NCBI GenBank assembly: GCA_902536765.1
Contig: CACAYM010000001.1
Location: forward strand, 124,001 to 188,000
Source: an uncultured Pelagibacteraceae bacterium
Lineage (GTDB): Bacteria > Pseudomonadota > Alphaproteobacteria > Pelagibacterales > Pelagibacteraceae
Direction of reading: 5' to 3'
Length of the DNA: 64,000 nucleotides
Positions within the stretch are counted from its first letter, which is position 1. Every line of letters starts with the position of its first letter. The position numbers and the translations under genes are program-made. A model generated the notes under the pieces. It did not search any database. It was not told the origin of the DNA and worked only from the letters and a program-made list of their open reading frames with translations. Of the stretch, positions 13,745 to 32,287 are shown piece by piece.

Positions 13745-14065
13745 ATGACAATCCAAAAAGCAAAATTTTCAATTGGTGATGTAGTGAAACATAAGCACTT
13801 TGATTTCAGAGGTGTAATATATGATGTTGATTTTAAATTTAATAATTCCGAAGAATGGTATCAGTCTATTCCAAAAAATGTAAGACCTAGAAAAGATCAG
13901 CCTTTTTATCATCTTTTAGCCGAAAATGATGATCTCACTTACGAAGCTTACGTGTCTGAGCAAAATTTATTATCGGATGATTCTAAAGAGCCAGTTAAAC
14001 ATCCTCTTATTAATGAGATTTTTTCTGGCAAAAAAGGATCTAGCTATTTTAAGCAATACAATTAA
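13745..14065 (+). CDS. hspQ: heat shock protein HspQ
   Basis: AKFSIGDVVKHKHFDFRGVIYDVDFKF...QPFYHLLAENDDLTYEAYVSEQNLL. Confidence 0.93.
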   Translation: MTIQKAKFSIGDVVKHKHFDFRGVIYDVDFKFNNSEEWYQSIPKNVRPRKDQPFYHLLAENDDLTYEAYVSEQNLLSDDSKEPVKHPLINEIFSGKKGSSYFKQYN

Positions 14066-14131
14066 TACATCTTTTTTCAAACACAATTGGCACAAATGTT
14101 GGTCACACTAAATATTTAAAATTTAAGTATA

Positions 14132-14191
14132 TTCTGATCAAGAGTGCAAACGTTTCCCTTAAGATTATCTCCCTCGCATTCTTGATCAGAA
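14132..14191. repeat. long inverted repeat: 16-bp stem (one G.U), 28-nt loop
   Basis: TTCTGATCAAGAGTGC (14132-14147) and GCATTCTTGATCAGAA (14176-14191) are complementary apart from one G.U position. No T-run follows, so it is not a classic intrinsic terminator. Confidence 0.85.
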
Positions 14192-14244
14192 CACGACCCT
14201 TTATCTCACTTTGAAAAATTAAAATTTCAATTATATATACATCA

Positions 14245-14946
14245 ATGAAACTTATCAAAAACTATCAATTTAGGTTGGTGCAAAAAAGTCAAAAAATTGT
14301 TTTGTGCTTATTTTTAATTGTCTTAATGCTTGGTTTATTTGAAGCTTTGATTATATCTCCCGAAGATTACTTGCAAGGTGACTCCGTAAGAATAATGTAT
14401 GTCCATGTTCCGTCAGCGTGGATCTCACTTGGTATATTTTCTTTAATGGCAACTCTATCAATTATGGTAATTCTTTTTAAGAACAAAGTATTTTTTTTGA
14501 TTGCAAAAAGTTTAGCTCCCTCTGGATTTATATTTAGCTTGGTTGCCTTAGTAACTGGCTCGATCTGGGGAAAACCAACTTGGGGAACGTGGTGGGCTTG
14601 GGATGCCAGAATAACGTCAATGTTAATATTATGCATCTTTTATTTAATGTACCTAATTGCATGGAGAATTTTTGAGAGCAAGGATTACGTAACTAAAATA
14701 ACTTCATTTATAGCAATTTTAGGATTTATAAATATTCCAATTATAAAATTTTCTGTTGATTGGTGGTCAACTTTACATCAACCGTCGTCTGTAAATATTT
14801 TCTCTGAAACAACTATCCATTCTACAATGCTAATACCCCTGGGCATCATGACTGCGGCATTTGCCCTATTTTCGTTGCTTATTTTTTTAATGAAATATAA
14901 TACAGAATTGATAAAAATTAAAAATAAAGGTTTAGACAGATTATGA
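14245..14946 (+). CDS. ccmC: cytochrome c biogenesis / heme exporter protein CcmC
   Basis: MYVHVPSAWISLGIFSLMA...GSIWGKPTWGTWWAWDARITSMLIL: CcmC WWD domain. Confidence 0.97.
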   Translation: MKLIKNYQFRLVQKSQKIVLCLFLIVLMLGLFEALIISPEDYLQGDSVRIMYVHVPSAWISLGIFSLMATLSIMVILFKNKVFFLIAKSLAPSGFIFSLVALVTGSIWGKPTWGTWWAWDARITSMLILCIFYLMYLIAWRIFESKDYVTKITSFIAILGFINIPIIKFSVDWWSTLHQPSSVNIFSETTIHSTMLIPLGIMTAAFALFSLLIFLMKYNTELIKIKNKGLDRL

Positions 14947-32177: not shown

Positions 32178-32273
32178 GTTATCGCCACTTCCGCAAAGTC
32201 AGCAATTTGCGGTGTCTTTGGAAACAAAGAGATCGACACCAGTCAGCGAGGGTTCGCCCACTGGTGCGATAAC
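32178..32273 (+). ncRNA. candidate structured RNA / 5' leader upstream of ffh (unclassified)
   Basis: Closing helix GTTATCGC (32178-32185)/GCGATAAC (32266-32273); CCGCAAA/TTTGCGG (32191-32197/32206-32212); GGTGTC/GACACC (32211-32216/32235-32240) capped by TTTG-GAAA-CAAA; CACCAGT/ACTGGTG (32237-32243/32260-32266) enclosing GGG-TTCG-CCC. Helices partly compete. Confidence 0.6.
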
Positions 32274-32287
32274 TGCTGTGTAAAATT

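Follow-up and report, generated by a model that had tools for sequence, protein, structure and literature searches.

The 179-bp spacer between hspQ and ccmC in a Pelagibacter-type SAR11 genome (G000, 1.14 Mb) encodes a conserved plus-strand RNA hairpin with an almost invariant C-rich loop, preceded by a block of direct repeats and a putative -10 box. The spacer is considered, with slightly better than even confidence, to be a small RNA gene in its own right that is confined to the Pelagibacteraceae, in which a regulator-driven promoter would produce a plus-strand hairpin whose C-rich loop acts on RNAs. The fuller proposal, that of a family-wide and previously undescribed SAR11 small RNA that is switched on by a two-component system and uses an invariant, single-stranded CUCCCU loop to regulate mRNAs where Shine-Dalgarno sites are largely missing, is put forward tentatively, at somewhat short of even confidence.

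The hairpin element between hspQ and ccmC

The window, that is, the whole stretch of 64,000 nucleotides that was analysed, had been described in a first-pass annotation as containing an unexplained 179-bp hspQ-ccmC spacer with an inverted repeat, and both the spacer and the repeat were confirmed (Table 1). The two arms, TTCTGATCAAGAGTGC and GCATTCTTGATCAGAA, form 16 pairs, one of them G.U, around a 28-nt loop. Folding of the 67-nt hairpin gave -22.4 kcal/mol as compared with -7.2 ± 2.5 kcal/mol for 200 dinucleotide shuffles (z -6.05; reached by 0 of the 200), and the entire plus strand of the spacer had a folding z of -4.40.

Table 1. Features of the hspQ-ccmC region, in positions of the window
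Feature	Position	Strand	Basis or remark
hspQ (YccV-like / HspQ)	13745..14065	+	Pfam PF08755; constant upstream neighbour of the element
Upstream block with an 11-bp step between its four units; C invariant at 14071, 14082, 14093 and 14104, G near-invariant at 14102	14069..14107	+	C in 100% of 68 sequences; putative operator of a PhoB/OmpR/ChvI-type response regulator
Putative -10 box TAAAAT (family consensus TAnnnT)	14117..14122	+	Base counts in the 68-sequence alignment
Presumed transcription start region, immediately 5' of the stem	14127..14131	+	Position of the putative -10 box
Hairpin 5' arm	14132..14147	+	Pairing and covariation
28-nt loop, predicted unpaired, with UUAUCUCCCUC at 14165-14175	14148..14175	+	CUCCCU near-invariant in all 14 genera
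Hairpin 3' arm; strong conservation stops here	14176..14191	+	Alignment of relatives
ccmC	14245..14946	+	Pfam PF01578; next gene downstream in most genera, with a pagL-like gene in its place in g3, g6 and g8

Comparison with relatives, which the first-pass annotation had proposed as a check, demonstrated that the stem is retained with compensatory changes. When 29 members of the genus were aligned by sequence, 97.6% of the cells were paired and five pairs were changed on both sides, a result that none of 500 shuffles equalled. Double changes were found at 13 of the 16 stem pairs among 46 sequences and at all 16 among 68 sequences (200 cells; 97.1% paired), the last alignment being fitted to the model and therefore biased towards it, while slid controls gave at most 58 double-changed cells and at most 52% pairing. 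The sequence of the stem spans forms as different as TTCTGATCAAGAGTG, GCCTAATTGGGAATT and GTCCAGTTTGAAG, and the best explanation is that the stem needs only to pair and its sequence is free to drift. Conserved RNA structure outside coding regions, a mark of bacterial small RNA genes, is thus present at this locus.

Wobble cells in the stem of the 68 sequences, read on the plus strand, comprised 131 G.U against 2 C.A; these cells are not independent events, and their direction is unambiguous. It follows that the molecule under selection is the plus-strand RNA, and a minus-strand RNA was rejected on the same asymmetry. Comparative sequence evidence thereby identifies the hairpin as a real RNA structure. 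The suggestion of a small RNA on either strand, made in the first-pass annotation, is the best supported of its options as regards the small RNA and fails as regards the second strand.

The most constant part of the hairpin is found in the loop, where each position of CUCCCU is conserved to 97–100% in the 68 sequences and the motif is near-invariant in all 14 genera. In the window this motif is part of UUAUCUCCCUC, adjoins the 3' arm and is predicted to be unpaired; the form across the 68 sequences is (A/U)CUCCCU(C), and in many copies the motif is preceded within the loop by another C-rich run (UUUCCCUU or AUCCCC). The first-pass annotation had spotted the hairpin and overlooked both this invariant loop and the upstream operator and -10 module described below.

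Distribution among SAR11 genomes

A DNA search matched 59 of the 197 genomes of the family, and in every one of the 30 loci examined the match lay between hspQ and ccmC. Among the 397 genomes of the order, a covariance model (R1) matched 281, comprising nearly all members of the genus of the window and several other genera, and a wider model (R2) matched the other 13 Pelagibacteraceae genera, so that all 14 are covered. Part of the hairpin was matched by 120 named records; hspQ stands immediately upstream in 119 of them, and the remaining one is cut at a contig end. As judged from this comparison, the element is Pelagibacteraceae-wide.

Within its own genome the hairpin element occurs in a single copy, and a dispersed, REP-like repeat, the outcome that the proposed copy-number check was designed to reveal, was rejected. 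A search for phage or viral copies found none. The model search returned no significant match in the neighbouring family f2, and the weak matches there are unrelated sequences. In that family ispZ directly follows hspQ, the two genes standing head to tail on one strand at five loci (L135-L139); in the family of the window they are divergent. Six genomes of the genus (G097, G137, G149, G186, G264 and G276) and one of g4 (G018), all more than 90% complete, yielded none of hspQ, ccmC and the element, which points to loss of the block or to an assembly gap that they have in common.

The upstream block and putative promoter

Apart from the hairpin, the signal is strongest in a block some 40 bp long, whose start lies no more than about 10 nt from the hspQ stop codon. 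Invariant cytosines occupy alignment columns 7, 18, 29 and 40 in 100% of the 68 sequences, in exact 11-bp steps, and their T and A neighbours follow the same step; the period-11 score was reached in none of 2000 column permutations. The first unit of the block is GCC in most genera other than g1. The last unit (GNCA) is followed after 11 nt, at a nearly fixed spacing, by a TAnnnT -10 box (T in 64/68, A in 68/68 and the sixth-position T in 48/68 sequences). The distance from the -10 T to the stem is mostly 13–19 nt and ranges in total from 10 to 33 nt, the values of 32–33 belonging to two genomes with an insertion; in these two (L076 and L082) about 17 additional bases separate the -10 box from the stem and both modules are intact. 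The fixed distance between block and -10 box, together with the variable distance between -10 box and stem, indicates two modules, as expected of a promoter and its transcript.

A canonical -35 element was not found in the upstream module, and TTGACA-like hexamers at 17-nt spacing were rejected, as they are inconsistent among relatives when read from the alignment. Direct repeats with an 11-bp step that end about 11 nt before the -10 box are the layout of PhoB-type activated promoters. The block shows this arrangement, with direct repeats at a step of 10–11 bp next to the -10 box as in PhoB/OmpR promoters. Like PhoB and ChvI operators, it consists of direct repeats with an 11-bp step, the last of them 11 nt before the -10 box, but it differs in keeping only the C of each unit, in having four units and in lacking a detectable regulon, since a genome search with the operator motif found no clear second site or regulon above the control. 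It resembles the consensus of ChvI from S. meliloti, which in the form quoted in PMC9731502 is N-GCC-N8-GCC. SAR11 bacteria have very few regulators, namely two sigma factors and four two-component systems (PMC13198564). A PhoB and an OmpR/ChvI-like regulator are present in SAR11, and a chvG is listed in a published kinase table. From the arrangement of the bases we infer that the block and the -10 box constitute the element's own promoter, presumably activated by a response regulator of the PhoB/OmpR/ChvI type.

Alternative interpretations

An unlikely reading, though the most substantial of the alternatives, is that of a cis-acting 5' leader, in which the mRNA of the operon that follows (ccmC or pagL-like) would include the promoter block and the hairpin. 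The hairpin or its loop would then control how stable this mRNA is or how it is translated, possibly by way of a protein that binds the C-rich loop. The element lies on the same strand as the downstream gene, which is ccmC in most genera, and a promoter at this position would read into that gene 50–100 nt downstream. Furthermore, no intrinsic terminator (a short-loop GC stem with a U-tract) was found at the locus, in line with the earlier remark that the hairpin is not an obvious terminator, and a T-run of at least five within 14 nt of the stem occurs in only 10 of the 68 relatives; the hairpin was accordingly rejected as an intrinsic terminator, and read-through from the element into ccmC or pagL is possible. 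However, in g3, g6 and g8 the element still stands behind hspQ and is followed by a gene for a PagL-like outer-membrane protein (PF09411) and one for an FMN-dependent dehydrogenase, while ccmC is located elsewhere without the element; loci L122 (g3), L074 (g6) and L130 (g8) show these two genes in place of the ccm genes. Since three genera have a different downstream gene and still keep the element, it is not tied to ccm in particular, and a leader that always precedes ccm genes was rejected, leaving the initially proposed cis-regulatory element of ccmCDEFGH unsupported. Also against a leader, conservation in the 68-sequence alignment drops after the stem, with little of it on the 3' side, and GGGAG-type sites were not found near the downstream start codons, where the 68 loci gave five scattered matches.

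Still less probable is an element of the hspQ 3' untranslated region, where the hairpin would end or stabilise the hspQ mRNA or be cut out as a 3'-UTR-derived small RNA. This reading draws on the presence of hspQ next to the element in all complete cases, on the short distance between its stop codon and the start of the block, and on the failure to find the element in family f2, where ispZ takes the place next to hspQ. However, the block between hspQ and the hairpin has an 11-bp DNA periodicity and is followed by a -10 box, neither of which a 3' UTR would need; the copy in the window has no U-tract and that of other copies is weak, and a plain terminator would not hold a 6-nt loop motif invariant.

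A DNA element, either a palindromic protein-binding site or a cruciform, is very improbable, for although the stem is an inverted repeat and Stav 2019 (PMC6429828) cautions that certain SAR11 motifs of this sort may function in the form of single-stranded DNA, the excess of G.U over C.A means that the changes preserve RNA pairing on one strand and break the DNA palindrome, so that an operator reading of the stem is strongly disfavoured.

Relation to known RNAs

Scanning with Rfam release 15, another of the checks proposed at the outset, gave no family at the locus at the gathering score and only weak matches at chance level. The sole match in the window to reach that score was the ffh small RNA motif (RF01793) at 32222-32275 on the plus strand, with 55.5 bits.

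The alpha-r14 (NfeR1) or 'cuckoo' RNAs of Alphaproteobacteria combine an ultraconserved anti-SD loop with stems of variable sequence (PMC10746234), and their mode of action is to repress mRNAs through pairing at the ribosome-binding site. The SAR11 element resembles them in its divergent stem, its ultraconserved, C-rich and anti-SD-like loop and the conserved stretch upstream of the transcript. In contrast, the alpha-r14 RNAs have three motif-bearing hairpins with CCUCCUCCC in their unpaired regions, whereas the SAR11 element has one hairpin with CUCCCU in its loop; sequence homology between the two was not found, and SAR11 hosts have few SD sites. With one hairpin and a different motif, the element was not filed as a member of alpha-r14, and it may work like these RNAs at most by analogy. 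A second model is ChvR of Caulobacter, whose small RNA gene stands alone and is activated by the OmpR-family regulator ChvI, and whose RNA pairs with its target through stem-loops (PMC6237742). ChvR differs in being 84 nt long with three hairpins and a possible terminator at its end, and shared sequence with the SAR11 element is not established.

Structured RNA motifs in intergenic regions of Pelagibacter have been collected in the same organisms and by the same approach (Meyer 2009, PMC2704228; the HIMB5 set of Stav 2019, PMC6429828), among them rhtB, a single bulged hairpin. The hspQ-ccmC region is absent from the table of Pelagibacter regions in Meyer 2009, whose cut-off near 26% G+C would leave out many copies (spacers of 21–30%). 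The main text of Stav 2019 does not name the region; the supplement, which according to that text contains one small RNA, the high-ranking candidates HRC-1 and HRC-2 and five protein-binding candidates, may include the element. As far as checked, the element is previously undescribed, an earlier listing in that supplement being possible.

Proposed mode of action and search for targets

In the proposed mechanism, a PhoB/OmpR-type response regulator would bind the four tandem 11-bp repeats and help RNA polymerase to use the TAnnnT -10 box, so that transcription would begin at the foot of the stem. The plus-strand RNA would then fold as one 16-bp stem presenting the C-rich loop, with UUAUCUCCCUC in this genome. 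This loop would be the working part and would base-pair with purine-rich, AGGGAG-like sites on other RNAs; binding of a protein by the loop is a less likely alternative. Promoter function, start site, regulator, a discrete 3' end and pairing with mRNAs are all parts of this model that extend beyond the comparative data.

In its own genome AGGGAG was not found before ATG above the control (24 versus 21). SD-like tetramers were not enriched upstream of 49 ORFs of the window, a rough test in which ORFs of at least 150 aa were used and starts were taken from the longest ATG frame; this makes the case for a general anti-SD role weaker. In this genome the loop is perfectly complementary over 10 nt to the ribosome-binding site of metK, AGGGAGAUAA (L290, G000:C1:52614-52809, minus strand). 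As the complementarity is not conserved in other genera, metK was rejected as a target, and the limited search found no conserved target.

Significance

Few cells in the sea are as abundant as SAR11 bacteria, whose set of regulators is very small, and the element provides one defined locus to test. If the proposal is correct, the loop might mark the few mRNAs that do have SD sites, or bind a protein, and this single-copy, family-wide RNA with its apparent operator would be a candidate link between a two-component signal and post-transcriptional control in streamlined cells.
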